From Devosia sp. (lineage in GTDB: Bacteria; Pseudomonadota; Alphaproteobacteria; Rhizobiales; Devosiaceae): 36,271 nt of DNA. A program made the position numbers and the translations under genes. Shown one piece after another: positions 5,131-36,271 of this stretch. The notes under the pieces are model-generated. The model searched no databases, was not told the DNA's origin, and was given only the letters and a program-made list of their open reading frames with translations. The stretch spans positions 1 to 36,271 of the forward strand of contig JAHCJW010000015.1 of assembly GCA_026126125.1 (NCBI GenBank), given 5' to 3'. Positions within the stretch are counted from its first letter, which is position 1; the number at the start of each line of letters is the position of its first letter.

Positions 5131-5147
5131 TTCATACTTTCAGGACG

Positions 5148-6644: not shown

Positions 6645-7174
6645 AGCGGCACCTTGAGCAGAATTTGAAACAGGCCGTAGATGAACGCCGTGGTTACGAG
6701 CGGGAAGATGATGAGGCCCTTCCAGCTTCGCAATCCGAACAGCCACAACAGGGCGACGAGATAGAGCGCCGTTGCGACCAGATAGCCGGTTGTCCACCAG
6801 GCAAAGACATAGAGCGCGCTCAGCGCCAGCGCCGAGAGCATCCGCACCCAGCCGTCGCGATGGCTGCTTTCCAGATCATCGCGCCGCACGGTTTGCGCGA
6901 AAATGGAGAAGCACAGCAGGACGGTCGACAAGGCGATGGCGGCACTCGAAAGCAGCGTCGGCCACCATTTGGGATCCAGACCCCCACCGCCCATGCGCAG
7001 ATGGATATTGCGCGAGAGCACGAGCGCCAGCAGCGCGAGGGCCAGGGCGACGGACGCCGTGGCGATCTCCATGCGGCGCGAGGGCGATGCCGGCTGGTGC
7101 TCGTCACCGGCCGGTTCGTCCGGCAGCGCCTTAACGCCGCCGGACGATGCCGCGAGCTTTTCTTGCTCGGCCAT
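6641..7174 (-). CDS. tctB: Tripartite tricarboxylate transporter, small subunit TctB
   Basis: A 177-residue membrane protein with a polar N-terminal stretch of about 30 residues followed by four hydrophobic segments (beginning around ATASVALALALLALVL, and further ones to the C-terminus). This is the usual layout of the poorly conserved TctB subunit. It begins 4 bp after the tctC stop and ends in an ATGA overlap with tctA, so all three subunits should be made from one mRNA. TctB is required for uptake in studied systems, but its mechanism is not understood. Confidence 0.9.
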   Translation of the reverse strand: MAEQEKLAASSGGVKALPDEPAGDEHQPASPSRRMEIATASVALALALLALVLSRNIHLRMGGGGLDPKWWPTLLSSAAIALSTVLLCFSIFAQTVRRDDLESSHRDGWVRMLSALALSALYVFAWWTTGYLVATALYLVALLWLFGLRSWKGLIIFPLVTTAFIYGLFQILLKVPL

Positions 7175-7178
7175 TCGC

Positions 7179-8117: not shown

Positions 8118-8183
8118 GGTCTCTCTCTCTCCCAGTGATTGTTGTGGTTGTTGATAGATGTGGCGTGAAATCCTTTCGGGACG

Positions 8184-8885
8184 TCACGTTTGCGCTTGCT
8201 TGTTGCGTCTCCTCTCCAGGGCGCGTTCCCAGACAGTCACCATCCGCACCCGCGATCCTTCGAGGTGGTTGGCAAGTTCGGCCTCCGCCGCGTCAGGATT
8301 TCCGGCGCGGATCAGCTCGAGCAATTCCCGATGCTTGGCCGCGCTGTCGGAAAGATTCTGCTCCAGCGAAATGGTAAGGCGCAGCAGCGTCATCATGATC
8401 GGCTCATAGCGCCGCCACACATCGGCCAGCCGCTTGTGGCCGGACATCAGGCAGATCTCGTTGTGAAAGGCCACGTCCGCCTTGGAAAATTGGGCGGGAT
8501 CGTCGGTCTGGGCAGCGCGCTGCATCAGCTCGACCTGCTTTTCGATCTCGACGAACCGCCCACCCTCGGCGCGAGTGACCGCCAGCCGCACGGCCAGCCC
8601 CTCGATCGCGCCCCGCAGGGAATAAAGCTCGCTGATGCTCTCCTGGTCGATGCCGATAACGACCATGCCAGGGTTCTGGTTTTCCACCAGCCCCTCGGCC
8701 TGCAGCAATTGCAGCGCATCGCGCACAGGACCACGGCTGACGCCGAACTGCTCGGCCAGATCGGCCTCTATCAGCCGCTCGCCGGGAGCGAACTCGCCGG
8801 CCGCGATGGCGATGCGCAGCTCGGACGCGACGCGGGGACCCAGCGACTCGCGCTGCAACACGTTGATCGACATCCTCCTCGACAC
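8184..8885 (-). CDS. GntR-family regulator, FadR/FCD subgroup
   Basis: A 233-residue transcription factor. The N-terminal winged helix (about residues 15-80) carries ERLIEADLAEQFGVSRGPVRDALQLLQAEGLV, the GntR DNA-recognition signature. The remainder is an all-helical FCD effector domain. It is transcribed in the same direction as tctC and lies 66 bp ahead of it, so it probably controls the transporter-aldolase-kinase operon and itself. A perfect palindrome at 8911-8927, just upstream, is the likely operator. The GTG at 8883-8885 has GGAGG 9 nt upstream and is preferred. The ATG at 8873 has a purine run directly abutting it, which is too close. Confidence 0.9.
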   Translation of the reverse strand: MSRRMSINVLQRESLGPRVASELRIAIAAGEFAPGERLIEADLAEQFGVSRGPVRDALQLLQAEGLVENQNPGMVVIGIDQESISELYSLRGAIEGLAVRLAVTRAEGGRFVEIEKQVELMQRAAQTDDPAQFSKADVAFHNEICLMSGHKRLADVWRRYEPIMMTLLRLTISLEQNLSDSAAKHRELLELIRAGNPDAAEAELANHLEGSRVRMVTVWERALERRRNKQAQT

Positions 8886-8910
8886 CGGCTCCGTCCTCCA
8901 GTTCGGATTA

Positions 8911-8927
8911 CTGTTAACCGTTAACAG
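8911..8927. promoter_or_regulatory. Palindromic operator before the GntR regulator gene
   Basis: CTGTTAAC-C-GTTAACAG is a perfect 17-bp palindrome with one central base, 26 bp upstream of the GntR start codon. FadR-subgroup regulators commonly bind short palindromes of this size at their own promoter. No second copy is visible in the tctC upstream gap (8118-8183). Confidence 0.65.
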
Positions 8928-9041
8928 AGCAGATGGTCAAGCCTGGTCCTCGGCCATGGCGCTGCTTGTGGAAATTACGCGGTCACCGGACAGCCTGCCA
9001 CCCTCGGGCAGCAGGCCGTTTCACAGGGGTTCGCCAGGACG

Positions 9042-10493
9042 TCAGCTCCCCAGCCCACCGATGCAGGCATATTTGAGCTCGGTGAATTCGAGGATGCCGT
9101 GCGAGGAGCCTTCGCGGGAATTGCCGCTTTCCTTGACGCCGCCAAACGGCGCCAATTCGGTGGAGATGAGGCCGGTATTGATCCCGACCATGCCGTATTC
9201 CAGCTGCTCCATGACCCGGAACACGCGCGCCAGATCGCGGGAATAGACATAGGCGGCAAGGCCCGTCTCGGTATCATTGGCAGCCGCGATGGCTTCGGCC
9301 TCGCTGTCGAAGCGGAAAACCGGCGCCAGCGGCCCAAAGGTTTCTTCGCTGGCGACGGCCATGGCCGCAGACACCCCGGTCAGCACGGTGGGCTGGAAGA
9401 AAGTGCCGCCCAATTCATGCCGGCCACCGCCGGTGGCAATGCTGGCGCCTTTTGCCAGGGCGTCGGCGATGTGCGCCTCGACCTTGGTCACGGCTTCAGC
9501 GGTGATCAGCGGCCCCTGGCTCACACCTTCGGCAAATCCGTCCCCGACCGCCAGTGCGGCCACGCGCTGCACCAATTTTTCCACGAAAGCGTCGTGGACA
9601 CCGGCCTGGACGTAGATCCGATTGGTGCAGACACAGGTCTGACCCATATTGCGGTATTTGGAGAGCATGGCGCCGTCGACGGCGGCATCGAGATCGGCGT
9701 CGTCAAAAACGATGAAGGGCGCGTTGCCGCCGAGTTCCAACGCCACTTTCTTGACGGTCCCGGCCGCCTGCCGCATCAGGATCTTGCCCACTTCGGTCGA
9801 ACCGGTGAACCCGATCAGCCGCACGGCGGGATGGGAGGTCAGCACGCCGCCAATGGCCACCGCATCGCCGGTGATCACATTGACCGTACCAGCTGGAAAA
9901 CCCGCCCGGTGCGCCAATTCGGCCAGTGCCAGCGCCGTCAGGGGCGTTTCGGGCGCCGGCTTGACCACCACGGTACAGCCGGCGGCCAGGGCTGGGGCGA
10001 TCTTGCGCGTAATCATAGCCGCGGGAAAATTCCACGGCGTGATCGCGGCAACCACCCCAATGGGCTGGCGCAGCACCATGAGACGGGCATCGGTGCGGTG
10101 CGAGGGCAAGATCTCTCCGGCGACGCGCTTTGCCTCCTCGGCATAGAATTCGACATAGGATGCGGCATAGTCGATTTCGCCCAGCGCCTCGGCGAAAGGC
10201 TTGCCCTGTTCGCTGGTAAGGATCCGTGCCAGATCCTGCCGATTGGCCAGGATCAGGTCGAACCAGCGCCGCAATATCGCCGAGCGGTCCTTGGCGGTAC
10301 GCCTCGACCAGGGCGCAAAGGCGCTCCGAGCCGCCTCGACCGCCTTGGTCGCCTCCACAGCTCCGAAATTGGGCACCTTGCCGAGCACCGTGCCCGTGGA
10401 AGGATTGATGACCGGCAGGGTGCCTTCACCCACAAAGGCGCCGTCGCTATAGGCCTGGAACTTGAGAAGCGCAGGGTCGATGAGATCACGCAT
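9042..10493 (-). CDS. gabD: Succinate-semialdehyde dehydrogenase, NAD(P)+-dependent
   Basis: A 483-residue aldehyde dehydrogenase that oxidises succinate semialdehyde to succinate, the last step of GABA breakdown before the TCA cycle. Visible features: the cofactor-site motif PWNFPAAM, the FTGSTEVGK loop (229-237), the general base E253 in ELGGNAPF and the catalytic C287 in GQTCVCTNR. C289, two residues on, matches the nearby cysteine forming a redox switch in some GabD enzymes. The length is normal for GabD. The ATG follows AAGGAG. It lies 15 bp downstream of gabT in the same operon, which supports the substrate assignment over other semialdehydes. Confidence 0.93.
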   Translation of the reverse strand: MRDLIDPALLKFQAYSDGAFVGEGTLPVINPSTGTVLGKVPNFGAVEATKAVEAARSAFAPWSRRTAKDRSAILRRWFDLILANRQDLARILTSEQGKPFAEALGEIDYAASYVEFYAEEAKRVAGEILPSHRTDARLMVLRQPIGVVAAITPWNFPAAMITRKIAPALAAGCTVVVKPAPETPLTALALAELAHRAGFPAGTVNVITGDAVAIGGVLTSHPAVRLIGFTGSTEVGKILMRQAAGTVKKVALELGGNAPFIVFDDADLDAAVDGAMLSKYRNMGQTCVCTNRIYVQAGVHDAFVEKLVQRVAALAVGDGFAEGVSQGPLITAEAVTKVEAHIADALAKGASIATGGGRHELGGTFFQPTVLTGVSAAMAVASEETFGPLAPVFRFDSEAEAIAAANDTETGLAAYVYSRDLARVFRVMEQLEYGMVGINTGLISTELAPFGGVKESGNSREGSSHGILEFTELKYACIGGLGS

Positions 10494-25384: not shown

Positions 25385-26194
25385 ATGAAGACCTCGAAGA
25401 TAGCCGCCTCTATCCTGGCTGGAGCCGCAATGGTGCTGGCCCTGTCGAGTACAGCGATCGCCGACCAATATGAGACGATCATGCAGTCGGGCAAGCTGCG
25501 CATCGCCACCGATTTCGCTGTGCCGCCCTATGGCATGCTCGACGCGGACCTCAAGCCGGTTGGCCTTGATGTCGAAGTGGCGCGCAAGCTGGCCGCCGAT
25601 TGGGGCCTCGAGCTCGAATTCATCGAGACCACCGGCTCCTCGCGCATTCCCAACCTTCTCACCGACAAGACCGACCTCGTCATCTCGTCGCTCTCGATCA
25701 CCCCGGACCGCGCCGAGGTCATTGATTTCAGCGCGCCCTATAGCGTGATCAATTCGGTCATCGGCGGCGCTGCCGACGACAAGGTCGCCGGCTGGGAAGA
25801 CCTCAAGGGCCGCGCCGTGGCCGTGGCGCGCGGCACGATCAATGACACCGACATCTCCGCCGAGGCCGACACCTACGGTTTCACGGTCACCCGCTACGAA
25901 GACGACGCGACCTTGATCACCGCCATCGTCAGCGGCCAATCCGACCTGATTGGCCATGCCGCAGCAACGCTGCTGCGCGTCAACGAGGCCGGCCCGACGC
26001 TGAAGTTCGAGCCCAAATTCGTCACCCGCGCCAGTGGCTTGGGTATCGGCGTGCGCAAGGGTGAGCCCGAATTGGTCAAGCACCTCAACGAATGGGTCGC
26101 CGAAAACATCGCCAATGGGACGCTCACCGAAATTACCGAGCGCTATACCGGCCTGCCGCTGCCCGAAGTCATGCCCGTCATGGCCAAGAAATAA
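25385..26194 (+). CDS. ABC transporter substrate-binding protein, amino-acid family 3
   Basis: A 269-residue periplasmic binding protein. A signal peptide occupies about residues 1-26 (ILAGAAMVLALSSTAIA then DQYE). The mature domain shows the family 3 pattern: GKLRIATDFAVPPYGMLDADLKPVGLDVEVARKLA, TDLVISSLSITPDRAEVIDFSAPY and WEDLKGRAVAVARGTIND. Family members bind polar amino acids, opines or small organic acids. It is separated by 31 bp from the ATPase gene and followed by a hairpin, a common arrangement that lets the binding protein be expressed more highly. AAAGGGAGAG precedes the ATG. The ligand is unknown; the neighbouring enzymes suggest a non-standard amino or carboxylic acid. Confidence 0.92.
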   Translation: MKTSKIAASILAGAAMVLALSSTAIADQYETIMQSGKLRIATDFAVPPYGMLDADLKPVGLDVEVARKLAADWGLELEFIETTGSSRIPNLLTDKTDLVISSLSITPDRAEVIDFSAPYSVINSVIGGAADDKVAGWEDLKGRAVAVARGTINDTDISAEADTYGFTVTRYEDDATLITAIVSGQSDLIGHAAATLLRVNEAGPTLKFEPKFVTRASGLGIGVRKGEPELVKHLNEWVAENIANGTLTEITERYTGLPLPEVMPVMAKK

Positions 26195-26204
26195 CCTTAA
26201 TAAG

Positions 26205-26230
26205 GGGCCGGCTCGCCACAGAGCTGGCCC
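26205..26230 (+). terminator. Intergenic hairpin after the binding-protein gene
   Basis: GGGCCGGCTC (26205-26214) pairs with GAGCTGGCCC (26221-26230) with one G-T wobble, closing a 6-nt loop, 11 bp after the stop codon. There is no T run, so it is more likely an mRNA-stabilising or partial termination element than a full stop. Confidence 0.55.
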
Positions 26231-26267
26231 ATCCCAATCATCCCGAGCCGACCCGAAGGAGATCGTC

Positions 26268-27377
26268 ATGTCCCCGCATGACCTAGACGCGCTGTTCGAG
26301 CCCCTAGCCCTTGGATCGCTGCGCCTGCCGAACCGCCTGGTCATGGCGCCGCTGACGCGCAATCGCGTTGGCGAGGATGGCGTGCCCACCTCCATGGTCG
26401 CCGACTATTATGCTCAACGCGCCACGGCCGGCCTCATCATCGCTGAAGCGACCCAGATTTGTCCCGAAGGCCAGGGCTATGGCCTCACCCCGGGCATTCA
26501 CACCCCCGAGCAGATTGCCGGCTGGCGCAAGGTCACCGATGCGGTGCACCAACGCGGCGGCCGCATCTTCCTTCAGCTCTGGCATGTGGGCCGCGTGTCC
26601 AATACTCTCATCCAGCCCCGCGGCAAGGCGCCGGTCGCACCCTCGGCGATCCGGGCGGAGGCCCGGACCTGGATTGCCGGCGAATTCCTGCCGACCTCGC
26701 AGCCCGTCGCCCTCGACATCGATGCTATTCCCGCTATCGTCGAGGCCCATGCACAAGGCGCCCGCAACGCGCTGGCGGCCGGCTTCGACGGCGTGGAACT
26801 GCATGGCGCCAATGGCTATCTGATCGATCAGTTTTTGCGCGACGGCTCCAACCAGCGCACCGATGCCTATGGTGGCTCCATCACCAACCGCGTGCGCTTT
26901 ATGTGCGAAGTGGTCGACGCGGTGACGCGCGCCGTGGGCTCGGGCAAGGTCGGTATCCGCCTCTCGCCGGTCACGCCATCCAATGGCGCTTTCGACAGCG
27001 ATCCGGTGCCGCTGTTCTATCACGCTGTGGAGAGCCTCAATCCGTTCAATCTGGCCTATCTGCATGTGATCGAAGGCGAGACGCGCGGTGATCGCAACTA
27101 TAATGGCGCGGTTGACTATGCCAAGCTGCGCCGCTCGTTCCGCGGTGCCTATATGGCCAATAACGGCTATACGCGGGAATTGGCCGCCGAGCGCATCTCA
27201 GCGGGCTATGCCGATCTTGTCTCCTTCGGCCGCTCCTTCCTGGCCAATCCCGATCTCGCCGAGCGCTTCCGGCAGGGACTGGACCTCAACCTGCCCGAAA
27301 ACGCCACGTTTTATGGCGGCGACCGGCGCGGCTATACCGACTATCCCTTCGCCGCCGGAGCGGCCGCCCCCGCATAG
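26268..27377 (+). CDS. Old Yellow Enzyme-family NADH:flavin oxidoreductase
   Basis: A 369-residue FMN-dependent (beta/alpha)8 ene-reductase of the NemA/OYE group. Landmarks: NRLVMAPLTRNR at the N-terminus, LQLWHVGRVS with the substrate-binding region, GFDGVELHGANGYLIDQFLRDGSNQRTDAYGGS (the class signature) and YADLVSFGRSFLANPDL at the phosphate-binding end. Such enzymes reduce C=C bonds conjugated to a carbonyl, carboxyl or nitro group. GAAGGAG precedes the ATG. It is in line with the transporter genes, 73 bp after the binding protein, and may work opposite or alongside the flavoprotein at 18644-20053, though the true substrate is unknown. Confidence 0.92.
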   Translation: MSPHDLDALFEPLALGSLRLPNRLVMAPLTRNRVGEDGVPTSMVADYYAQRATAGLIIAEATQICPEGQGYGLTPGIHTPEQIAGWRKVTDAVHQRGGRIFLQLWHVGRVSNTLIQPRGKAPVAPSAIRAEARTWIAGEFLPTSQPVALDIDAIPAIVEAHAQGARNALAAGFDGVELHGANGYLIDQFLRDGSNQRTDAYGGSITNRVRFMCEVVDAVTRAVGSGKVGIRLSPVTPSNGAFDSDPVPLFYHAVESLNPFNLAYLHVIEGETRGDRNYNGAVDYAKLRRSFRGAYMANNGYTRELAAERISAGYADLVSFGRSFLANPDLAERFRQGLDLNLPENATFYGGDRRGYTDYPFAAGAAAPA

Positions 27378-27433
27378 ATAGGCAGGCTGCCCTTCCCCAC
27401 TACCCTTGCCTCCTCGCTCATCGGAGACTTCCC

Positions 27434-27910
27434 ATGTCAGACCCGGCTATCGCCGTCCAACCTCATATCCTGCTGCTCCAGGGCCCCAACATGAACTATC
27501 TCGGCAAGCGGCAACCCGAGCTTTACGGCTCGACCACAGCCGCCCAGCTTGACGAGATCGTGCGTCAGCATGCAAGAGACACGGGATACCGGCTCAGCAT
27601 CTTCTACACCAACAGCGAAGGCGCCGCGCTCGATCGGATCTATGAGGCCGTCGAAAACGAAGGCATGGATGGATTGGTCATGAACCCGGCCTCATGGTCG
27701 GTCGGTGCGGGTGCCTCCATACGCTATTGCATCATGTCGGTGGCCAAGCCCTACGTAGAAGTGCATCTGCGCAACCAGTATGTCATGAAGAACGTCTCGA
27801 CTTTGGCCGATCTGGCCGTGGGCGTCGTGCAGGGCTTCGGGATCGATTCCTATCTTCTGGGGCTCGATGCCATGTACCGGCACCTGCTTCGCGGCAACGC
27901 TGCCAGCTAG
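27434..27910 (+). CDS. Divergent type II 3-dehydroquinate dehydratase-like protein
   Basis: A 158-residue protein with the flavodoxin-like fold of AroQ. Retained parts are LLLQGPNMNYLGKRQPELYG (R26 and catalytic Y31), the asparagine of VMNPASW (N84) and the histidine of VEVHLRN (H111). Changed parts: the usual NHEG is NSEG, the usual YSHTS loop is WSVGA (active-site His lost) and the REPFRHHS arginine region is QYVMKNVST. Biosynthetic or quinate-pathway AroQ enzymes keep those residues, so this protein probably dehydrates or hydrates a related but different compound. It is the last intact gene of the divergent catabolic operon, 56 bp after the OYE gene. Confidence 0.8.
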   Translation: MSDPAIAVQPHILLLQGPNMNYLGKRQPELYGSTTAAQLDEIVRQHARDTGYRLSIFYTNSEGAALDRIYEAVENEGMDGLVMNPASWSVGAGASIRYCIMSVAKPYVEVHLRNQYVMKNVSTLADLAVGVVQGFGIDSYLLGLDAMYRHLLRGNAAS

Positions 27911-27950
27911 ATCATGTCTCGCGAAAATGGCCCCGGTTTCGGGATAAAGA
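27911..27950. repeat. Palindromic intergenic repeat element, copy 2 (partial)
   Basis: It matches copy 1 (1981-2017) at 30 of 37 positions without gaps (shared CATGTCT, AAA.TGGCCC, GGTTTCG.GATAA). It lacks the right-hand arm AAGACATGC and the second hairpin, so it is truncated. It begins right after the stop codon of the AroQ-like gene and borders a decayed region. Confidence 0.55.
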
Positions 27951-27962
27951 AAGGGTGAGCCA

Positions 27963-28467
27963 ACGAAGATTTCCGTTCTCGATTCACTTGAACACGCGCC
28001 GGGAGAAAACAGCGCCGCAACATTGCAGCGCGCTATCGCCCTGGCCCGCGGCGCCGCACGTTTCGGGGACGCTCGCGGGGCCCTGGACCTGCGGCTGGCC
28101 TGTTCTGCCTTTCATCGCCCCGAACTGATGCCTGCCATCATTGCCGCCTACGGCGCCGCCTTTGTGCCGGCCGGGTGGGGCGGGCTGCGCCGAGCCGCAG
28201 GTGCTGATCGCCATAATGGGTTCCGTGGCGGCGACGCGGCAAGAGGCAGAATTGCAGGCCATGCCCATGCTCATGGCCAATGCATTGCGCCGCAAACAGG
28301 GCATCGTCCTGCCGCATCTGCCCGATACGGAGGCCTTCATTACCCATTTCGGCGGCGTCGTCCCGGCCGGGTCGGAACTGGCCAGCCGTTACATCATTGG
28401 CGGCATTGATAAGGTCTCCGCGCGGCTGCAACGGCAGGCCGAGGAGCGTGCGGGCGACCGAACCTGA
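27963..28467 (+). pseudogene. Remnant of an LLM-class flavin-dependent oxidoreductase
   Basis: Three segments of a luciferase-like monooxygenase are recognisable. The first, from 27966, reads KISVLDSLEHAPGENSAATLQRAIALARGAARFG, matching the usual N-terminus (LSVLD...A..LAR.AE.LG). The second is LRLACSAFHRPELMPAIIAAYGAAFVPAG, the loop and helix normally about 170 residues further on. After a frameshift near 28165-28190 the third, AEPQVLIAIMGSVAATRQEAE...SRYIIGGIDKVSARL, is the C-terminal region. So most of the barrel is deleted and the frame is broken. The codon before K is ACG where ATG is expected. It is fused at its end to an NsrR remnant. Confidence 0.7.
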
Positions 28468-28648
28468 TTTTGCCATGCTCAAATGTTTCGGCCAGGAGGA
28501 GCGAAATTGCTGCCTCTCGCCGGAATGCCAATTGTGCGGAATATTGGGCGGGACCCTGGATGCCTTCATGGCGGAGATGGACCGCCACACGCTGGGGGAT
28601 CTTGTGGTGAATCCCGCCTCCTTCGCAGTGCAGCGGCCGGCTGCGTAA
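28448..28648 (+). pseudogene. C-terminal remnant of an NsrR (Rrf2-family) repressor
   Basis: The frame from 28448 gives VRATEPDFAMLKCFGQEERN, then CCLSPECQLCGILGGTLDAFMAEMDRHTLGDLV. This corresponds to the NsrR cysteine region and C-terminal helix (typical pattern: EP.F..VECF....C...P.C.L...L..A...F...LD..TL.DL). NsrR uses these cysteines for a nitric-oxide-sensing Fe-S cluster. The N-terminal DNA-binding half is absent; the sequence upstream belongs to the LLM remnant. No start codon with a ribosome-binding site leads this frame. Confidence 0.68.
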
Positions 28649-28683
28649 TGGGGCATGCTGCGACATCTTGACCACCGCCCATA

Positions 28684-28706
28684 AACATGACTATGAAATG
28701 CATGTT
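28684..28706. promoter_or_regulatory. NsrR-box-like palindrome upstream of the Fec-type operon
   Basis: Arms AAACATG (28683-28689) and CATGTTT (28701-28707) flank an 11-bp A/T-rich centre. The 23-bp core fits the published NsrR consensus length and most positions (AA.ATG....AAATGCAT.TT). A TATATA sequence (28712-28717) immediately downstream could be a -10 box, so a bound repressor would block the promoter. It is 97 bp upstream of the permease start. The neighbouring NsrR remnant supports the reading. The rest of the gap 28649-28802 shows nothing else firm. Confidence 0.55.
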
Positions 28707-28802
28707 TTTATTATATAGCTGAACACGCCCATTTGCTGCGCCTTTCGATAGGCGTCGCTCCCGGACAAGTCAGATTTTACAACCGCCACCCAGAGTGACT
28801 CC

Positions 28803-29861
28803 ATGACTGATTTCGCGCCCGCCGCGAAACGGGCGAGCCCGCATGCGCGTATCGCTACCCGAAGCAGCGTCCTTGCCCCTGCCCTTATTGTCCTGCCGTT
28901 CATTCTGGCGGTGTTGGCGCTGTGCCTGGGGCGCTATGTCGTCAGCCCCGCCAATGCCCTGTCTATCCTGTTCAGTCAGATCCTGCCCATCGAACCCAGC
29001 TGGCAAGCGGTTGAGGAAACAGTCGTGCTCAATATCCGCCTGCCCCGCGTCCTGATGGCACTGGTCATCGGCGCCGGGCTGGCCGTTTCGGGCGCGGCGT
29101 TCCAGGGCCTGTTCGGCAATCCGCTGGTCAGCCCGCATATTCTGGGCGTGTCGTCAGGCGCCGGGTTCGGCGCTGCATTGACCATTCTCCTCTTCCGCCA
29201 TCTCGCCTTCGTGCCCGCCGGCGCGCTGATCTTCGGCATCGTCGCCATGATGATCGCCTTGTGGATTTCGCGGCGCGGCGGGCAGTCCTCGCTGTTCATG
29301 CTGATCCTGGCCGGTGTCATTACCGCCGCCATGTTCGAGGCGCTGCTGGCGCTGCTCAAATATGTCGCCGATCCCAACGACACCCTGCCCACCATCGTCT
29401 ATTGGCTGATGGGCAGCCTCACCGCCTCATCCTATGAGATGCTGGCCTGGGGCGTGCCGCTGATGGGGCTGGGGATCGCCGTGCTCTGGGCGCTGCGCTG
29501 GCGGCTGAACGTCATGTCGCTCTCCGAGGTCGAGGCCCGCTCGCTCGGCACCGACGTACAGAAGATGCGCTGGGTGGTCATCACCGCCGCCACCCTGGTC
29601 ACCGCCGTCACCGTATCGCTGGCCGGCATTATCGGCTGGGTGGGGCTGGTCATTCCCCATGTTGCCCGCATGCTGGTGGGCTCCAACCATGCCGCGCTCA
29701 TTCCGGCCTCCATGTCGATCGGCGCCATCTATCTGCTGGCCATCGACACCGTGGCCCGCACCGCCACCAGCGCCGAAATCCCGCGTTCCATCCTCCCCGC
29801 CGTGGTCGGCGCGCCGTTCTTCGCCTATCTGCTCAAACGCGCTAAGGGAGGCTGGTCATGA
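28803..29861 (+). CDS. FecCD-family ABC transporter permease
   Basis: A 352-residue inner-membrane permease of the BtuC/FecCD type with about ten hydrophobic segments. Family marks: IRLPRVLMALVIGAGLAVSGAAFQGLFGNPLVSPHILGVSSGAGFGA, LIPASMSIGAIYLLAIDTVART and the C-terminal GAPFFAYLLKR. It would dimerise and move an iron-siderophore, heme, corrinoid or metal chelate delivered by the binding protein at 30682. The ATG at 28803 has only a weak GAGTGA element. Its stop overlaps the ATPase start as ATGA. The substrate is not readable from sequence. Confidence 0.92.
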   Translation: MTDFAPAAKRASPHARIATRSSVLAPALIVLPFILAVLALCLGRYVVSPANALSILFSQILPIEPSWQAVEETVVLNIRLPRVLMALVIGAGLAVSGAAFQGLFGNPLVSPHILGVSSGAGFGAALTILLFRHLAFVPAGALIFGIVAMMIALWISRRGGQSSLFMLILAGVITAAMFEALLALLKYVADPNDTLPTIVYWLMGSLTASSYEMLAWGVPLMGLGIAVLWALRWRLNVMSLSEVEARSLGTDVQKMRWVVITAATLVTAVTVSLAGIIGWVGLVIPHVARMLVGSNHAALIPASMSIGAIYLLAIDTVARTATSAEIPRSILPAVVGAPFFAYLLKRAKGGWS

Positions 29862-30676
29862 GCCTTGCCATCCGCGATGCCAGTTATGGCCACAGGCCGG
29901 GCAAGCCATTATTCACCGGCCTCGACTTCGCCCTCTCCTCCGGCGAAATCATGGCCGTGCTCGGCCCCAACGGCGCGGGCAAGACCACCCTGCTCAACAC
30001 CATTACCGGCATGATGGCCTGGCAGCGGGGGGAAACGCTGGTCCATGGCAAGCCGCTCGCTGCCTATGGCGAGCGCGAGCTGTGGCGCCATATCGGCTAT
30101 GTGCCGCAGGCCCGCACCAATGCCTTCGCCTATTCGGTGCTGGACATGGTGCTGTTGGGCCGTTCGGCCCATCTGGGCACATTCGCCCGCCCCGGCGCCG
30201 AAGACATCGCCATTGCCCGCCGCGTACTCGCCCGGCTCGAAATCGCCCACCTGGAAAAAGCCTATTGCAACGCCATCAGCGGGGGCGAGCTGCAACTGGT
30301 GTTCATCGCCCGCGCTTTGGTGGGCGAACCATCGATCCTGTTTCTCGACGAGCCGGAATCGCATCTCGATTTCAAGAAGCAGCTTATTATCCTCGACATC
30401 ATCGAGCGCCTCGCGCGCGAAGACCGGTTGATCTGCGTGATGAACACGCATTTTCCCAACCACGCCCTGCGCATCGCCGACCAGGTGCTGATGCTGGGCG
30501 GTGACGGCACCCATCGCTTCGGTCCAACCACCGAAGTGCTCACCGAAGACGCCATCCGCGCCTGTTTCGGCGTCAATGCCCGTATCGACACCATCGACGC
30601 CGAGGGCCGCGCCATGCGCGCCATCTATCCGGTATCGCTGGACCGGACCCATAACCATTCCCAACCGGAGACCTGA
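29858..30676 (+). CDS. FecE-type ABC transporter ATP-binding protein
   Basis: A 272-residue ATPase. Walker A is GPNGAGKTT (about residues 35-43), the Q-loop is around IGYVPQART, the signature is ISGGELQLV, Walker B is SILFLDEPESHLDF and the switch histidine is in VMNTHFPNHAL. The LSGGQ motif reads ISGGE and the D-loop SHLD, as in FecE/BtuD-type proteins. It overlaps the permease gene by four bases and is followed 5 bp later by the binding-protein gene. It energises the importer from the cytosolic side. Confidence 0.92.
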   Translation: MSLAIRDASYGHRPGKPLFTGLDFALSSGEIMAVLGPNGAGKTTLLNTITGMMAWQRGETLVHGKPLAAYGERELWRHIGYVPQARTNAFAYSVLDMVLLGRSAHLGTFARPGAEDIAIARRVLARLEIAHLEKAYCNAISGGELQLVFIARALVGEPSILFLDEPESHLDFKKQLIILDIIERLAREDRLICVMNTHFPNHALRIADQVLMLGGDGTHRFGPTTEVLTEDAIRACFGVNARIDTIDAEGRAMRAIYPVSLDRTHNHSQPET

Positions 30677-30681
30677 ACCCC

Positions 30682-31749
30682 ATGTTCAAGCCATCGCTGC
30701 TTTCCATCCTGCTCGCCGGCACCGCGCTGCTGGCCAGCCCCGCCACGGCGCAGGAAACCCACACGGTCACCGACCGCATGGGCCGTGAGGTCGAGCTGCC
30801 GGTCGATATCGAACGGATCGCAACCGAGTTCCTGCCCTTCCCTTCGGCCTGGTTCATCTCCACGGGTTCGGCCGACGAGATCGTGGGCATGCACCCCGAC
30901 TCCATGCGCATGGCCGAGCGCGCCTTGCTGGGCCGTATTGCGCCGGCCCTGCTAGGGGCGGAGACCGGCTTCACCCAGGGCAATTCCGTCAATGTCGAGG
31001 AATTGCTGCGCCTCGCGCCGGACGTGTTCGTTTCCTATGAATCCATGCCGGCTATCGCCGATGTCGAGCGCGTCGGCATCCCGGTCCTGGCCATGGACGT
31101 GCTGTCCAATTCCGGCGGCAACGTCATCCAGACCTATAGCGGATGGATGGAATTGCTGGGCCAGGTCGCCGGACAGGAAGGCCGCGCCGCCGACATCATC
31201 GCCTATGCCCAGGACGCGCTGGAGCGCACGCGCACACGCATCGCCGCCATTCCCGAAGAGAGCCGCCCCGGCGCGCTGTTCTTCGCCCGCCTCGAGCAGA
31301 ATTCGCTCAAGATCAACGGCGCCGGTCATTTCGGCCATTTCTGGGTCACGGAGGGCGGCAATCGCAATCTGGCGCCGGATGGCATCCCGCCCTTGGCCGA
31401 TATCGACATGGAACAGATCTACGCCCTCAATCCCGAGGTGATGTTCATCTCCAATTTCTCGCCCACCAGCCCCGAGGATCTTTATGAAAACCGCGTGCCC
31501 GGCCAGGACTGGAGCCATGTCAGGGCGGTGCAGGACAAGCGCGTCTACAAGATCCCCGAGGGCATTTTTCAGTGGTATCCGCCCAGCGCCGATGCGCCGC
31601 TGATGCTGCAATGGATCGCCCAGGTAAGCCATCCGGACGTGTTTCAGGATTACGACATCCAGGACGTGATCCGCGATTACTACCACCGCTTCTACGCCTA
31701 TGAGCTGAGCGAGGACGACATCCAGCTCATTCTCAATCCCGAGTTCTAA
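30682..31749 (+). CDS. Periplasmic binding protein, FecB/BtuF-like family
   Basis: A 355-residue binding protein. A signal peptide covers about residues 1-23 (SLLSILLAGTALLASPATAQ). The mature protein begins HTVTDRMGREVELPVDIERIATEF, the usual start of periplasmic-binding-protein fold 2 proteins for iron chelates, heme or vitamin B12. Further marks: VNVEELLRLAPDVFVSYES and DWSHVRAVQDKRVYKIP. It is longer than the average FecB (about 300 residues), with an extra C-terminal stretch from residue 320 rich in D, Y and H (DYYHRFYAYELSEDD). A strong hairpin follows the gene. Confidence 0.9.
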   Translation: MFKPSLLSILLAGTALLASPATAQETHTVTDRMGREVELPVDIERIATEFLPFPSAWFISTGSADEIVGMHPDSMRMAERALLGRIAPALLGAETGFTQGNSVNVEELLRLAPDVFVSYESMPAIADVERVGIPVLAMDVLSNSGGNVIQTYSGWMELLGQVAGQEGRAADIIAYAQDALERTRTRIAAIPEESRPGALFFARLEQNSLKINGAGHFGHFWVTEGGNRNLAPDGIPPLADIDMEQIYALNPEVMFISNFSPTSPEDLYENRVPGQDWSHVRAVQDKRVYKIPEGIFQWYPPSADAPLMLQWIAQVSHPDVFQDYDIQDVIRDYYHRFYAYELSEDDIQLILNPEF

Positions 31750-31754
31750 TTCCT

Positions 31755-31778
31755 CTGCCCGCTCCCCGGAGCGGGCAG
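31755..31778 (+). terminator. GC-rich hairpin after the binding-protein gene
   Basis: CTGCCCGCTCC (31755-31765) and GGAGCGGGCAG (31768-31778) form a perfect 11-bp inverted repeat 5 bp after the stop. There is no T run, so it may stabilise the upstream message or reduce read-through into the FmdE-like gene rather than end transcription. Confidence 0.6.
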
Positions 31779-31804
31779 CCCTTATCATTCAGCGAGACCA
31801 GATC

Positions 31805-32422
31805 ATGTCCTTCCCGGTGTTTTTCAGCGCCGCCCCCGCCCTCACCCTGCGCGATCCGCTCGCCGAATTTCTCGGCACCGCCCCCGGCGGGGTCATCGAA
31901 TATCGCTATGAAGACGCGGTGCGGCTGGCGGGGCATTCCTGCCCGGCGGTGGCGGGGGCATGGCTGATGCTGGTCAACGGACTGGGCTATCTCTATGACG
32001 CGCAATTGCCCGAGCGCGGCGGCATCGAAGTGGCCATGCGCCAGGCGCGCGACCACGCCACCACCGGCGTGCTGGCTTCCATCGCCACCCTCGTCACAGG
32101 CGCGGCTCCCGAAACCGGCTTTCAGGGCATCGGCCCGGCGCACCGCTTCGCGCGCAAGGATTTGCTGGCTTTCGATACCGGGATCGAGGGCACGCTGGCG
32201 CTGCGGCGGCGCGATACCGGCAAGGGCGTGGCGGTTGACATCAATACCGACCGCGTGCCGCATGATCCGGCCACGGCCTGCCTGATGCCCAAGGCCGTTG
32301 GCGGCATGGCTTCACCCGACGAGCAGGCCGAATTTGCCCGCCTGTGGCAGGAGCGCGTACGCCGCATGCTGGTAGACCATCACGACGATCCCAAGCTGGT
32401 CCACCTCTATGACTGGAGCTGA
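31805..32422 (+). CDS. FmdE-like protein
   Basis: A 205-residue soluble protein. YEDAVRLAGHSCPAVAGAWLM (from about residue 35) resembles the N-terminal motif of the FmdE family (GHxCPG...), where His and Cys (here H44 and C46) are thought to bind a metal. The family is named after a gene of molybdenum formylmethanofuran dehydrogenase operons; its function is not settled. Members also occur next to metal-chelate ABC importers, as here. No signal peptide is apparent, so it is probably cytosolic. The family call rests on one motif and on context, so it is moderate. It overlaps or nearly abuts the DUF1971 gene. Confidence 0.62.
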   Translation: MSFPVFFSAAPALTLRDPLAEFLGTAPGGVIEYRYEDAVRLAGHSCPAVAGAWLMLVNGLGYLYDAQLPERGGIEVAMRQARDHATTGVLASIATLVTGAAPETGFQGIGPAHRFARKDLLAFDTGIEGTLALRRRDTGKGVAVDINTDRVPHDPATACLMPKAVGGMASPDEQAEFARLWQERVRRMLVDHHDDPKLVHLYDWS

Positions 32423-32426
32423 CGCC

Positions 32427-32717
32427 ATGACCAGCGATCGCCGCTGGCCCGAGGGTCTGGTGGCCTACAAGCGCACGCCGGACTTCACCGAAGCGACGGT
32501 GCCCGCCGGCCTGCTCAAGGCACATTCGACCAAGGCGGGCGTCTGGGCGCAGATCCATGTACAGCAGGGACAATTACGCTTCCGCGATCTCGAAACCGGC
32601 ATGGAAAGCCTGCTTGCGGTCGGCACCCATCGGCTTATCTTCCCGCAGGCTCTGCACGAGGTGGAGCCGGCCGGCAAGATGCAGTTTTACGTCGAGTTCT
32701 ACCGCGCCGCGACCTGA
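32427..32717 (+). CDS. DUF1971 (YeaR/TehB N-terminal-like) protein
   Basis: A 96-residue protein with a single cupin-like beta fold. SDRRWPEGLVAYKRTPDFTEATVPAGLLKAHSTKAGVWAQIHVQQG and LIFPQALHEVEPAGKMQFYVEFYR match the DUF1971 pattern (YK.TP.F.....P..L...H.TK.G.W..I.V..G.L......F.P...H.V). In Escherichia coli the relative YeaR is induced by nitrate and nitric oxide under NarL and NsrR control. The ATG at 32427, 4 bp after the FmdE-like stop, has GGAG 8 nt upstream; an ATG at 32409 would overlap that gene. It closes the operon that starts at 28803. Confidence 0.87.
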   Translation: MTSDRRWPEGLVAYKRTPDFTEATVPAGLLKAHSTKAGVWAQIHVQQGQLRFRDLETGMESLLAVGTHRLIFPQALHEVEPAGKMQFYVEFYRAAT

Positions 32718-32896
32718 AAGGCCCGGCGTGGTGAAATAGGGCAGTAAGGCGTGGAGCCAGTCGCCGAACGCCCCCGCCCAGAGCAATAAGGCGTTAAGGC
32801 CGGTCTCCCCATTGAGGGCGCCCTGCGGGGTCTCAAGAAAGCGATAGACCAACCGAGCGCTTCTCCTTGTACTGTGCATGGGCTGCTGAATAAAGC

Positions 32897-33967
32897 TCAG
32901 ACGTCAGTATCAACCGCGCAGATGTCGCTGTCGACCACGACGGCCGGCGCCCGGAGAACGAGGCGCACGCGCGCTCCGGGACGATAGGCGCAGAGGAATT
33001 CGGTATCGACCTGATATTGGTGTGTGCCGATCCTGACCCAATAGGTCACGTCGCGGCCCTTGAAGTCGCGTGCGTCGATGACCGCGTTGCACTCCTCGGC
33101 GCTTTCGAGGACGAGGTGCTCAGGACGAATGGAGAGGAGCACGCTGCCCTCGGCCGGTTCGGCCAGCGCTACGCGGCCGAGCGCGGTGTTGGCCATGTCA
33201 CCATCGGCCTCCCCGGCAATGAGATTGGTGCGCCCCAGAAAGCGCGCGACGAAAGCGCTGCGCGGCCGGACATAGACTTCCTCGGGCGCGCCGATCTGCT
33301 CAATGCGGCTACGCCGCATCACCGCGATCCGGTCGGCAAAGGACAGGGCTTCCTCCTGGTCGTGGGTGACAAAGATGGCCCCTACCCCGTTCTGCTTCAG
33401 CAAATCGCGAATCTCGCGGCGGGTGTTGTGGCGCAGGGCGGCGTCTAGGTTCGAAAAGGGCTCATCGAGCAGGATCAGGCGCGGACGGGCTGCGAAGGTG
33501 CGGGCGAGCGCGACGCGCTGCTGCTGGCCACCGGAAAGCTGATCGGGGAAGCGATCGCCAAAGCCGGCCAGCCCCACCATGTCGAGATAGCCGATGGCCG
33601 CCTTGCGGCGGGCCTTCCTGTCCGTGTCCCGGATGGCGAAGGCGACGTTATCGAGAACGGTCAGGTGCGGGAAAAGCGCATAATCCTGAAAGACGATGCC
33701 GATATTGCGCTTTTCGGGCTCGGCGCTGGTAATGTCCGCGCCATCGAGGCAGATGGTGCCGGTATCGGGGGTTTCGAACCCGGAGATCATGCGCAGGGTG
33801 GTGGATTTGCCGCAGCCCGAAGGACCGACCAGCGCGAAGATCTCCCCCGCCTCGACCGTGAAGCTGACATCGGCGACGACAGGTTCGGAAACGCCGGGAA
33901 AGGTCTTGCCGAGCGCCCGGACGTCGAGCAGTGGAGACTTGGCGGAGGCGTGATCGTGATTGTTCAT
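32897..33967 (-). CDS. fbpC: Ferric-iron ABC transporter ATP-binding protein
   Basis: A 356-residue ATPase. Walker A is GPSGCGKST (residues 48-56), the Q-loop FQDYALFPHL, the signature LSGGQQQR, Walker B LILLDEPFSNLD and the switch His FVTHDQEEAL. A C-terminal TOBE-type region follows (from about residue 240, including RPEHLVLES). This is the FbpC/AfuC arrangement. The start ATG (33965-33967) overlaps the permease stop by ATGA. No clear terminator follows; the 179-bp gap to the DUF1971 gene contains only a short palindrome (AGGGCGCCCT) and no convincing gene. Confidence 0.92.
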   Translation of the reverse strand: MNNHDHASAKSPLLDVRALGKTFPGVSEPVVADVSFTVEAGEIFALVGPSGCGKSTTLRMISGFETPDTGTICLDGADITSAEPEKRNIGIVFQDYALFPHLTVLDNVAFAIRDTDRKARRKAAIGYLDMVGLAGFGDRFPDQLSGGQQQRVALARTFAARPRLILLDEPFSNLDAALRHNTRREIRDLLKQNGVGAIFVTHDQEEALSFADRIAVMRRSRIEQIGAPEEVYVRPRSAFVARFLGRTNLIAGEADGDMANTALGRVALAEPAEGSVLLSIRPEHLVLESAEECNAVIDARDFKGRDVTYWVRIGTHQYQVDTEFLCAYRPGARVRLVLRAPAVVVDSDICAVDTDV

Positions 33968-35493
33968 CGCCTGCCTTCGTAACGCATGATGAGGCCGACA
34001 AAAAGACTGGAGAACACAACGAGCAGCGCGGCATAAGGCGCGGCTTCATAGAGCATGCCCTCGGAGGTATGGGCGAAGACGCGGGTTGCCAGGGTCGTGT
34101 AGCCGGTGGGGGCGAGAAGGAAGGTGATGGGCAACTCCTTGACCACCATGATGAAGACCAGTAACGCGCCCGCGACGATCGAGCGCCGAAGCCCCGGCAG
34201 GGTGACACCGTAAAAGGCCTGCCACTGTGTGTAACCGACCGAGCGCGCCGCTTCCTCGGTCCGCGAGCCCATCTGCAGGAGCGAGGAGCGGAGAGGTCCC
34301 ACGGTGAGCGCGAGAAAGCTCAGCGTATAGGCGAGGATCAGCAGCCCCAGCGTCTGATAGGCCCAGGGCATGACATTGAGCGCCATGAAGACCATCGCCA
34401 GGGCAAAGGCCAGCGGCGGGATGGCATAGCCGAGATAAACGAGGCGCGCCAGAACCGAGGCGAGGCGCGATGAGTATCGCACCGTGAGATAGACGACCGG
34501 CAACGCAAGGATAGCGGCAAGCACGGCGGCCGGCGCGGCGGCAAGCACGCTGCGCAGGAACACCTGCCGGAGATTTGCCCAGTCGAGCGAGGCGGGTGAG
34601 AGATTGAGCCAATAGGCGAGGATAAGCGCGGGGAGGCCCAGCGAGGCGCCATAGACCAATGTCAGGAACAGCCACGCCAATGGCCGCCAGCGCCCGAGCT
34701 TTGCTGGCGAAGGCTGACGGGCGACGCCGGTGCCGACCCGCGCATAACGGCCGCGGCGCGACAGCCAGCCCTCCATCACGATGAAGCACAGCGTCACCCC
34801 CATCAGCATCAGCGCCAACCAGGCGGCGTGGACCCGGTCGAAGGCTGAGGCGTATTGGGTGTAGATCGCGTAGCTGAACACCTCGTAGCGCATGAGGGCG
34901 ATGACGCCGAAATCCCCCAGCACGTAAAGCCCGATGACCAACCATCCGACGGCAAGCGCGGGCCAGAGATGAGGAAGCGTAATCGAAAAGAACGCATTCC
35001 AGCGCGAGCGGCCGAGGCTGCGGGCACTTTCCTCTAGAGCGGGGTCCATACCCATCATGGCGGCACGCAGGTTGAGGAAGAGATAGGGGAAGGTATAGAG
35101 CGAAAGTGCCAGCCCCGCGCCCCAAAGCCCGTCGGAACGCGGCAGGCGGACGCCGAACATGGTGCTGGCAAAGCCATTGTAGCCCGAGAGCCCGATCAGC
35201 GCATAGGCCATGACATAACCCGGCACGGCCAGCGGCAGGACGCCGAGGAAGGCGAGAGTCTTTTTATGCCTCAGGTCCGAATGCACCACGAGCCAGGCAA
35301 GCGGCATGGCGATGAGCGTGGTGATAACAATCACCAGCGCGGCGAGCGAAAGGGTATTGACCAGCAGCCAGAAATTGCGCTCACGAAAAACGATTTTCAG
35401 CAGCGTTTCGGGCTCGGCCTCCAAGGCGCGTAAGAGCAGATAGACGAGCGGAATACACATGCTCGCGCCCACGAAAATCGCAGCCGCGAGCAC
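33964..35493 (-). CDS. fbpB: Ferric-iron ABC transporter permease (fused two-domain FbpB)
   Basis: At least 509 residues, containing two tandem permease domains of about six helices each, as in FbpB/SfuB. The two EAA loops read MDPALEESARSLGRSRWNAFFSITLPHL and SRTEEAARSVGYTQWQAFYGVTLPGL. It forms the whole inner-membrane channel for Fe3+ delivered by FbpA. The start is uncertain. The GTG at 35491-35493 has poor signals, and the frame stays open and protein-like upstream (QRHRPPRLV). A CTG at 35547-35545 overlaps the fbpA stop as CTGA and would add 18 residues. Confidence 0.9.
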   Translation of the reverse strand: MLAAAIFVGASMCIPLVYLLLRALEAEPETLLKIVFRERNFWLLVNTLSLAALVIVITTLIAMPLAWLVVHSDLRHKKTLAFLGVLPLAVPGYVMAYALIGLSGYNGFASTMFGVRLPRSDGLWGAGLALSLYTFPYLFLNLRAAMMGMDPALEESARSLGRSRWNAFFSITLPHLWPALAVGWLVIGLYVLGDFGVIALMRYEVFSYAIYTQYASAFDRVHAAWLALMLMGVTLCFIVMEGWLSRRGRYARVGTGVARQPSPAKLGRWRPLAWLFLTLVYGASLGLPALILAYWLNLSPASLDWANLRQVFLRSVLAAAPAAVLAAILALPVVYLTVRYSSRLASVLARLVYLGYAIPPLAFALAMVFMALNVMPWAYQTLGLLILAYTLSFLALTVGPLRSSLLQMGSRTEEAARSVGYTQWQAFYGVTLPGLRRSIVAGALLVFIMVVKELPITFLLAPTGYTTLATRVFAHTSEGMLYEAAPYAALLVVFSSLFVGLIMRYEGRR

Positions 35494-35543
35494 GAGCCTC
35501 GGTGGGCGGTGCCTTTGCGCCGCCCCATTGGTCGCTAAACGGA

Positions 35544-36271
35544 TCAGAGCAATCCAACTTCCGTCAACAGGGCCAGTGTGCCTTCAAGATCGGAAATTTG
35601 GTCGATGTCAACAGAAGGGCTGATTTCGAGCAGCGTGCCGTAGGGCTCAAGCGTTGAGTTTTCGATGACGCCGGGAATGACCGGATATTCATTGCCCGTG
35701 GTGGTGATGAATTGCTGGGCGGGAACCGAGAGCAGGTAATCGATGAACTGGCGCGCCACGTCCTGATTGTCGCTGGCCGCGACGACACCGGCACCGGCGA
35801 CGTTCAGAAGGTTACCGATATCGCCGGCTTCGAAGTGCGTCTGGTCGACGGGAAATTCGGGGTCGGGACCGGTATAACGGCCCAGATAGTAGTTGTTGAC
35901 GAGACCGAAGTCGAAATCGCCATTGGCGATGCCCACGATCTGATTGCCGTTATTGTTGATTACGGTGGTCTCGTTAGCGATCATGCCTTCGAGCCATGCC
36001 TTGGCCGCTTCCTCGCCCTCGGTGATGCGGAAGGCGGTGACGAAAGCCTGGAACGAGCCATTGGTCGGTGCCCATGCGACGCGGCCACGGTATTCCTCGT
36101 TCACCAGATCCTTGATCGAGGCGGGAAGATCGTCTTCGCTGACGCGCTCGGTGGAGTAAACGAGGACGCGCGAGCGGCCCGACGTCGGAGCCCATTTGTT
36201 GGCCAGATTGCGGAAGGGCTCGGCAACGCCTGCGTTCACTTCGGCGGGGAGATCTGCGAAAGCGGGAGCAA
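35544..36271 (-). CDS. fbpA: Ferric-iron ABC transporter binding protein, C-terminal part (cut by window end)
   Basis: The C-terminal 240 or so residues of a periplasmic Fe3+-binding protein; the frame is open to the window edge (...APAFADLPAEVNAGVAEPFRNLANKW). Typical features are GVAEPFRNLANKWAPTSGRSRVLVYSTE, the tyrosine pair in LVNNYYLGRY that ligates iron in FbpA proteins, and EYPVIPGV near the C-terminus. The binding-protein-first order fits an fbpABC operon whose promoter lies beyond 36271. Confidence 0.9.
   Translation of the reverse strand, partial: APAFADLPAEVNAGVAEPFRNLANKWAPTSGRSRVLVYSTERVSEDDLPASIKDLVNEEYRGRVAWAPTNGSFQAFVTAFRITEGEEAAKAWLEGMIANETTVINNNGNQIVGIANGDFDFGLVNNYYLGRYTGPDPEFPVDQTHFEAGDIGNLLNVAGAGVVAASDNQDVARQFIDYLLSVPAQQFITTTGNEYPVIPGVIENSTLEPYGTLLEISPSVDIDQISDLEGTLALLTEVGLL

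Follow-up and report, generated by a model that had tools for sequence, protein, structure and literature searches.

Import systems that combine a FecCD-family permease with a Peripla_BP_2 binding protein otherwise transport metal chelates, B12, heme or oxyanions, and the YeaR protein of E. coli presumably belongs to the DUF1971 family. The yeaR gene is under NsrR control according to the accessible text of PMC5320621, and the E. coli NsrR site table there, in the part available, names neither an FmdE-like gene nor a FecBCD importer. For proteins of the FmdE family (PF02663), the accessible text of PMC2954224 indicates that most of the genes adjoin metal-ion transporter genes, and leaves the role of the family beyond methanogens unsettled despite solved structures.

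Here we analyze a 36,271-nucleotide stretch of Devosia sp. DNA (the window) in which these elements occur together. The initial annotation had regarded their combination as undescribed, a claim that stands in part. Both the location of FmdE genes beside metal-ion transporters and the control of yeaR by NsrR were already known (available text of PMC2954224 and PMC5320621), whereas no report of FmdE together with NsrR was found in the open-licence PMC literature. That literature also held nothing on topic, by title, for FmdE with nitric oxide (NO). Additional searches gave nothing on topic for fetABCDEF or for DUF1971 with denitrification, and nothing on topic for Hdf among the matches listed. 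The window shares with the E. coli NsrR regulon, as in yeaR-yoaG, a 23-bp operator of 11-1-11 form, an NsrR-type repressor gene that adjoins the operon in relatives of the window and, if YeaR is a DUF1971 protein as we presume, a DUF1971 gene within the operon.

A five-gene operon with a divergent FmdE-like protein

The operon spans positions 28803-32717 and encodes, in order, a permease, an ABC ATPase, a binding protein, an FmdE-like protein and a DUF1971 protein (Table 1). Each of the five is an open reading frame, two gene pairs overlap, and the intergenic gaps are at most 55 bases. The gene order proposed in the initial annotation is borne out by family profile matches and this tight spacing, with the FmdE-like match lying below its cut-off.

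Table 1. Features of the operon and of the region upstream of it
Feature	Position	Strand	Basis
C-terminal fragment, LLM-type oxidoreductase (debris)	28141..28467	+	TIGR03558 positions 211-298 of 325, 18.1 bits, weak
nsrR remnant, last 66 codons	28448..28648	+	residues 79-143 of NsrR; PF02082 model positions 78-130
NsrR-type operator (predicted), 11-1-11 palindrome AACATGACTATGAAATGCATGTT	28684..28706	+	23.5 bits
-10-like element TATATAGC	28712..28719	+	read from sequence; putative function
FecCD-family permease	28803..29861	+	PF01032, 282 bits
ABC ATPase	29858..30676	+	PF00005, 99 bits
Periplasmic binding protein, MolA/CeuE/YiuA group	30682..31749	+	PF01497 (Peripla_BP_2), 68.9 bits
FmdE-like cytoplasmic protein, divergent subfamily	31805..32422	+	PF02663, 18.8 bits
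DUF1971 protein (YeaR/TehB N-terminal type)	32409..32717	+	PF09313, 76.7 bits; cut-off 23.1

The FmdE-like protein falls short of the Pfam cut-off for PF02663 (22.9 bits), which is passed by its homologues L136 (23.2), L137 (26.3) and L138 (30.0) and not by L179 (17.4). Its profile detected solved structures by sequence only at E values of at least 0.11 when built from 3 rows, and matched none when built from 39 rows. The FmdE core fold is nevertheless present in the AlphaFold model (models were based on 39 and 17 alignment rows). For comparison 80 of 118 relatives were kept, and the 39 rows comprise 37 of these 80 named loci together with the window protein and its paralogue. When positions were paired by eye with structure 2glz, the metal ligands His15, His17, Cys19 and Cys55 corresponded to A42, H44, C46 and T86, such that two of the four ligands are missing. 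H44 and C46 are kept in all 39 rows, while no row has His at the place of A42 or Cys at that of T86. Within the family, 3d00 likewise lacks two metal ligands. The only cysteines of the window protein are residues 46 and 159, too few for the zinc finger of some family members. Relative to the PF02663 proteins in the available text of PMC2954224, the window subfamily is alike in its fold and in the location of its gene beside an importer, and differs in the two changed ligand places and in NsrR control.

Operator and nsrR genes in the Devosiaceae

The initial annotation had also described a 23-bp palindrome near the NsrR consensus before the operon and a broken nsrR coding remnant upstream, and had named loss of the palindrome from orthologous promoters and lack of co-occurrence with NsrR as grounds against NsrR control. 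Both features were confirmed, and both expectations of conservation hold in relatives. Scored with a matrix of 20 E. coli NsrR sites from the literature, the palindrome reaches 23.5 bits. An equally good hit arose once in 200 order-1 simulations of the window (about 0.005 per window by chance), and for the 300-bp promoter in which the palindrome lies P was 0.0003, the lowest value that 3,000 simulations allow. AACATGACTATGAAATGCATGTT is the single match in the window when up to 3 mismatches are allowed, in a scan with the pattern shifted by one base. The distance from the end of the operator to the permease start is 96 bp. The -10-like TATATAGC follows the operator closely, and the -35 position would be within the palindrome. 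Both the operator and the TATAG of TATATAGC are kept in the promoters of the orthologous operons of the two other Devosia genomes in which the operon was found (L037 and L038). Across the whole genome the operator pattern occurs in 3 places, the window box among them, with the specificity partly built in as the pattern was composed after both boxes were seen. The third place, on C248, precedes a LacI-type gene by about 100 bp and was rejected as an NsrR site in favor of what is probably the operator of another regulator. A chance origin of the window palindrome was rejected on the basis of this genome scan, the matrix score and the promoter simulations.

The nsrR remnant retains the cluster cysteines and lacks the DNA-binding half. 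Its identity to intact NsrR is 74% for the L037 protein and 59% for that of L005, a paralogous locus in the same genome, with similarity beginning at residue 76 (28439) in a whole-genome search. The oxidoreductase fragment before it is out of frame, with a 3' end that overlaps the remnant in a three-frame reading. In contrast to the window copy, nsrR is intact upstream of the same operon in both L037 and L038. The L005 locus, on contig C157, has the order nirK-nnrS-nsrR-FmdE-DUF1971, and its NsrR is full-length with three cluster cysteines (Cys 91, 98 and 104). The genome has only two other long relatives of this protein, 37% and 30% identical. Since the window copy is broken, NsrR from this second locus would regulate the operon in trans.

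An FmdE-like gene was found in 4 of 136 Devosiaceae genomes, for five genes in total. All five are located behind nsrR, intact in four cases and a remnant in one, and each gene or its presumed operon is preceded by a box scoring 19.3 bits or more; for L179, whose neighbours include Nfu/FeS_assembly_P, the operon start was taken as 5880 and is likely 5897, with the box less than 300 bp upstream either way. NirK scored over its cut-off in all four genomes (a partial hit in G1056) versus 53 of 136 overall, for a chance of about 0.02. No NorB was found in this genome at E 1e-25, and cNorB showed no enrichment in FmdE-like genomes (10/31 versus 12/35 genomes of the same phylum without a listed FmdE-like match, not class-matched). 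Only 3 of 136 Devosiaceae encode a close counterpart of the importer's binding protein, so the importer is an add-on and not part of the core. Box conservation, the adjoining intact nsrR and the paralogous locus together make the predicted NsrR-type control of the operon well supported at the sequence level.

FmdE-like loci outside the Devosiaceae

NO or denitrification markers lie up to 9.3 kb away in only 37 of 80 named FmdE-like loci, many of which end early at contig ends; neighbours were counted by tblastn since the ORF caller missed FmdE in 15 of 82 loci. A scan of the 300 bp preceding FmdE in 81 loci identified NsrR-type boxes of up to 6 mismatches in 4 loci (0.6 expected) and FNR-type sites with at most one mismatch in 4 (0.5 expected), so most copies, betaproteobacterial above all, show neither in that interval. 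In the Ciceribacter locus the 300 bp preceding nsrR contain no box, and a 19.4-bit site is located 640 bp upstream of nsrR. No good site precedes FmdE in the alphaproteobacterial loci L054, L076 and L081 (best anywhere in the locus 14.0, 18.6 and 9.9 bits), and L138 has no NsrR-type site of 9 bits or more.

In Azospirillum a hemerythrin gene adjoins the FmdE-like gene and nirK. Paracoccus and Bosea loci of the order TonB receptor - Rrf2 - FmdE-like - DUF1971 - SsuABC-like - NnrS share the NsrR-like/FmdE/DUF1971 core with the window, and differ in the type of importer and in an NsrR homologue that keeps only one of three cluster cysteines. Neisseria gonorrhoeae, in an iron-type transporter locus that we take to be fet, has an FmdE-like gene within a FecCD/Peripla_BP_2 system, preceded by a TonB receptor gene and a binding-protein gene. 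Unlike in the window, the gene sits between the permease and the ATPase, and no NsrR-type site above 10.9 bits was present in the 12.6 kb scanned.

Cargo, regulation and proposed role

The solved proteins closest to the binding protein are 4ovk, for which no ligand is named, MolA (3psa), CeuE (4ino) and YiuA (6b2x). Heme or B12 import was rejected, as binders of these ligands rank lower and no Rfam match to a cobalamin riboswitch, an element that some B12 importers lack, was present in 26000-34000 at the gathering threshold. Import of a metal or cofactor followed by handling by the FmdE-like protein, as first suggested, is plausible, with molybdate, iron or nickel chelates and sulfur compounds as candidate cargoes. 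The MolA likeness is what a MolBC-A-type molybdate or tungstate importer would show, and such a system might be raised during NO or nitrate respiration to feed molybdenum-cofactor enzymes. MolA binds molybdate (available text of PMC4031551), and MolBC-A, CeuE and YiuA importers share the FecCD permease and class III binding protein with the window; the window protein is only 22-24% identical to their binding proteins in structure alignments, and we consider this cargo unlikely. Transport of a sulfur compound or other organic ligand, with the metal-type fold incidental, seems distinctly unlikely. Its appeal is that in sister loci the same core is joined by an importer of SsuA-like (sulfonate) type, in L037 beside the FecBCD one, yet the SsuA_fam scores of 42 and 41 are far below the 163.5-bit cut-off and the known FecCD/Peripla_BP_2 cargoes are of another kind. 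Additionally, the nearest relative in a plasmid collection, from Treponema (43% identity), adjoins nifH/nifDK-like genes, although this is a single case; a nifH/nifDK-like enzyme and SsuABC serve isethionate use in Rhodobacter capsulatus, according to the accessible part of PMC11423573.

With respect to regulation, a reading of the operon as a typical siderophore importer controlled by iron through RirA, with a palindrome that is not an NsrR site, is highly improbable. The short remnant does score better as RirA than as NsrR in NCBIfam (34 versus 22 bits), as does the Paracoccus regulator L135 (108 versus 100). Against this, the intact L005 NsrR has NsrR as its best NCBIfam model (139 versus 113 bits for RirA), though below the 182-bit equivalog cut-off, the operator fits NsrR sites, and the paralogue is located with nirK and nnrS. 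The RirA (IRO) box is TGA-N9-TCA, and by eye the palindromes of the window, L005, L037 and L038 instead have TGA-N9-GCA or -ACA. We also doubt that the operon has escaped NO control to become constitutive or decaying. The window nsrR has lost its DNA-binding half, and the window operon carries a single binding-protein gene against two each in L037 and L038; however, all five reading frames are open, the operator and TATAG are kept, and a complete NsrR is encoded elsewhere in the genome.

We tentatively favor an NsrR-repressed operon that is released by NO, with an importer probably for a small iron chelate and with the FmdE-like and DUF1971 proteins acting in iron-centre repair. NO from the cell's own NirK or from neighbouring cells would damage the Fe-S cluster of NsrR, lifting repression such that a MolA/CeuE/YiuA-class importer and the two cytoplasmic proteins are made together. 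The cargo would most likely be a small metal chelate, probably of iron. The FmdE-like protein may take or re-load this metal via its His44-Cys46 site, with the DUF1971 protein working beside it, and NO-hit iron centres would be repaired or replaced. In favor of this account are the conserved operator, the nsrR link, NirK in all four Devosiaceae genomes with an FmdE-like gene, the metal-ion transporters beside most FmdE genes, and iron-related neighbours in L179, Azospirillum, N. gonorrhoeae and, as a TonB receptor, Paracoccus. Counting against it are the unnamed ligand of 4ovk, molybdate binding by MolA, the two missing metal ligands of the FmdE-like protein, the lack of NorB enrichment, the limited share of loci with NO or denitrification markers (37 of 80), the single cluster cysteine of the Paracoccus and Bosea NsrR homologues, and the rarity of close forms of the binding protein in the Devosiaceae. 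A more specialized role, in which the pair serves specifically to handle NO-modified iron, is something of a long shot. The His-Cys pair would take up or strip nitrosylated iron, and NsrR would couple the pair to whichever importer the lineage has (FecBCD, or SsuABC-like with a TonB receptor) for replacement of the lost metal. The subfamily would then have given up a four-ligand zinc-type site, and the copy at the Neisseria iron transporter would be an equivalent component that answers to a different switch. If true, this would constitute an unrecognised arm of nitrosative stress defense common to denitrifiers, ammonia oxidisers and gonococci.

The conserved NsrR operator, together with nirK, nnrS, hemerythrin, Fe-S assembly and iron-type transporter neighbours across several lineages, provides a testable setting for the FmdE-like subfamily, namely NO and metal supply. 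The operon also gives DUF1971 proteins a partner, makes Paracoccus and Devosia available as harmless model hosts, and predicts an effect of NO on metal uptake in denitrifiers.

Probable NsrR-type control of the window operon

The initial annotation, which saw an NsrR-like palindrome before an operon joining a FecBCD-type importer with FmdE-like and DUF1971 genes, proved right in its observation; NsrR control is the best-supported part of its interpretation and highly probable. The palindrome, whose position had been given exactly, scores 23.5 bits with a matrix derived from 20 E. coli NsrR sites out of the 27 listed in PMC5320621. The E. coli sites themselves score 14.6 to 36.9 bits, and an equally good site occurred in 1 of 200 simulated windows. 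When a 23-bp pattern, drawn up with the window and paralogue boxes already known, was run over the 3.9-Mb genome with up to 3 mismatches, it matched at 3 positions: the window box, its counterpart upstream of the second FmdE-like gene, and a site in front of a LacI-type gene. The reversed pattern matched nowhere. The box and the TATAG directly 3' of it are the most conserved stretch of three aligned Devosia importer promoters, a pattern such as a repressor covering the -35 region would leave.

The broken NsrR remnant reported upstream of the operon has 66 codons, keeping the cluster cysteines and lacking the DNA-binding half. The region around it resembles the scar of a deletion or a join made in assembling the draft genome, which has 302 contigs. 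Elsewhere in the same genome, contig C157 encodes a single close relative of full length; nirK at that locus scores 536 bits against TIGR02376 (cut-off 296). The full-length relatives that rank after it share 37% and 30% identity with the C157 NsrR. Since the window nsrR is broken and its full-length relative resides at this nirK/nnrS locus, control of the window operon, if there is any, is probably exerted in trans. No paper combining FmdE with NsrR turned up in the open-licence literature searched.

Features of the window and of related loci
Sequence	Position	Strand	Feature
Window	27910-28660		crowded broken-gene pieces (LLM oxidoreductase, nsrR)
Window	28684-28706		NsrR-type palindrome
Window	32897-36269	-	convergent ABC importer: TOBE ATPase, two-domain permease, SBP_bac_6 binding protein
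C157, same genome			nirK, nirV-like gene, nnrS, then ~1.2 kb on nsrR, box, FmdE-like, DUF1971
C248, same genome (G000)	45180-45202 (= L141 1501-1523)		AT-rich NsrR-box-like palindrome ~100 bp upstream of LacI-type gene
L179, Devosiaceae			box, DUF2249, protein without Pfam match, gene with two DUF2249/TusA-type domains, Nfu/FeS_assembly_P protein, nsrR, FmdE-like
L039, Bosea	8451-8897		NsrR-like regulator with only Cys91 of 3 cluster cysteines
L135, Paracoccus	8590-8997		NsrR-like regulator with only Cys91 of 3 cluster cysteines
L114, Paludibacterium	8867-8987		three strong NsrR-type sites and a perfect FNR-type site upstream of FmdE-like gene
L137, Neisseria gonorrhoeae	5986-6612		FmdE-like gene
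L138, Azospirillum sp. TSH58	4662-10196		nirK - FmdE-like - hemerythrin
L185, Treponema saccharophilum plasmid pTS1	3518-9814		nifH and two nitrogenase-component-1-like genes directly 5' of FecBCD-type importer

Conservation of the operon and its box

Scanning named genomes yielded 118 relatives; 80 loci from among them were retained. The conserved palindrome and adjoining intact nsrR that the initial annotation had proposed to look for are both present at two Devosia loci (L037, L038), followed by FecCD, ATPase, two binding proteins, FmdE-like and DUF1971; further along, L037 also carries nnrS in convergent orientation and an SsuA-like importer. Loci of Bosea (L039) and Paracoccus (L134, L135) combine nsrR-like, FmdE-like and DUF1971 genes with a TonB receptor, an SsuA-like importer and nnrS. 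Despite the same NO-type locus, the L039 and L135 regulators may sense something else. Among nine alphaproteobacterial promoters, chosen with most of their scores already known, eight reach P <= 0.002 with their best site (the window, the paralogous locus L005, L037, L038, L039, L179, L066 and L135) and L136 has no such site. Upstream of FmdE in four further alphaproteobacterial loci (L054, L076, L081, L138) there is no good site, and L085 has a weak one (14.9 bits).

The FmdE-like protein and the importer cargo

His44 and Cys46 are invariant in 39 aligned FmdE-like sequences, as are Arg71, Arg117, Arg135, Asp137, Trp181, Gln182 and Arg184. When the metal site described in passages of PMC2954224 is paired by eye with the alignment columns, the first-histidine place is occupied by Ala, Thr, Cys or Ser, and the second-cysteine place by Thr, Val or Asn. 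Judged from this alignment, the group is a subfamily with an altered metal site.

The cargo is likely a metal or metal chelate; iron in particular is a less probable, though quite conceivable, candidate. The best solved relatives of the window binding protein are 4ovk (ligand unnamed), MolA, YiuA and Helicobacter CeuE; the top relatives are thus molybdate, iron-siderophore and nickel binders, interspersed with a few whose ligand is unnamed. According to the same passages of PMC2954224, most PF02663 genes adjoin metal-ion transporter genes. The Neisseria FmdE-like gene sits within an iron-type locus (TonB receptor, binding protein, FecCD, ATPase); its record is filed as a plasmid, yet at 2.17 Mb is of chromosome size. 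Import of heme or B12 was rejected, as those binders rank lower as structural relatives and no riboswitch lies nearby. The convergent importer gives scores with iron(III)-, phosphonate- and molybdate-type models, each of them below the cut-off of the model.

Within the plasmid collection the nearest binding-protein relative (43% identity) is that of Treponema saccharophilum, beside nitrogenase-like genes; this importer is flanked on its other side by a further binding protein (35%). Alphaproteobacterial relatives, among those aligned and the matches listed, are 26-31% identical. The cassette may thus come from an anaerobe.

Distribution and the link to NO

Few genomes of the order have a match to the FmdE-like gene (3 of 297, one a 53-residue piece only). 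It is equally scarce in a draw from the class, where the window's own genome is the 1 of 385, but a draw from the phylum gave a larger share (43 of 398). It occurs in 4 of 136 Devosiaceae genomes, all with NirK (one match partial) versus 53 of 136 overall (chance 0.02). The close form of the importer binding protein (E near 1e-208) is found in 3 of these 136, with a distant relative in ten more.

By tblastn, DUF2249 (19), Rrf2/NsrR (12), NnrS (8), UbiT (8), hemerythrin (5), FecCD (4) and DUF1971 (3) lie within 4.5 kb of the 80 named loci, and 43 of the 80 have none of the NO markers within 9.3 kb. The Azospirillum locus neighbours NO-reductase-looking genes (annotated cbb3-type oxidase subunit, cytochrome c, NorQ-family) and hmpA. 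A search of the window's own genome at E 1e-25 detected no cNorB, and a comparison of genomes with and without FmdE-like showed no link to cNorB (10 of 31 with, 12 of 35 without). Given these marker counts and the cNorB result, the link to NO is only suggestive outside the alphaproteobacterial nsrR-linked group, and within that group it is firm.
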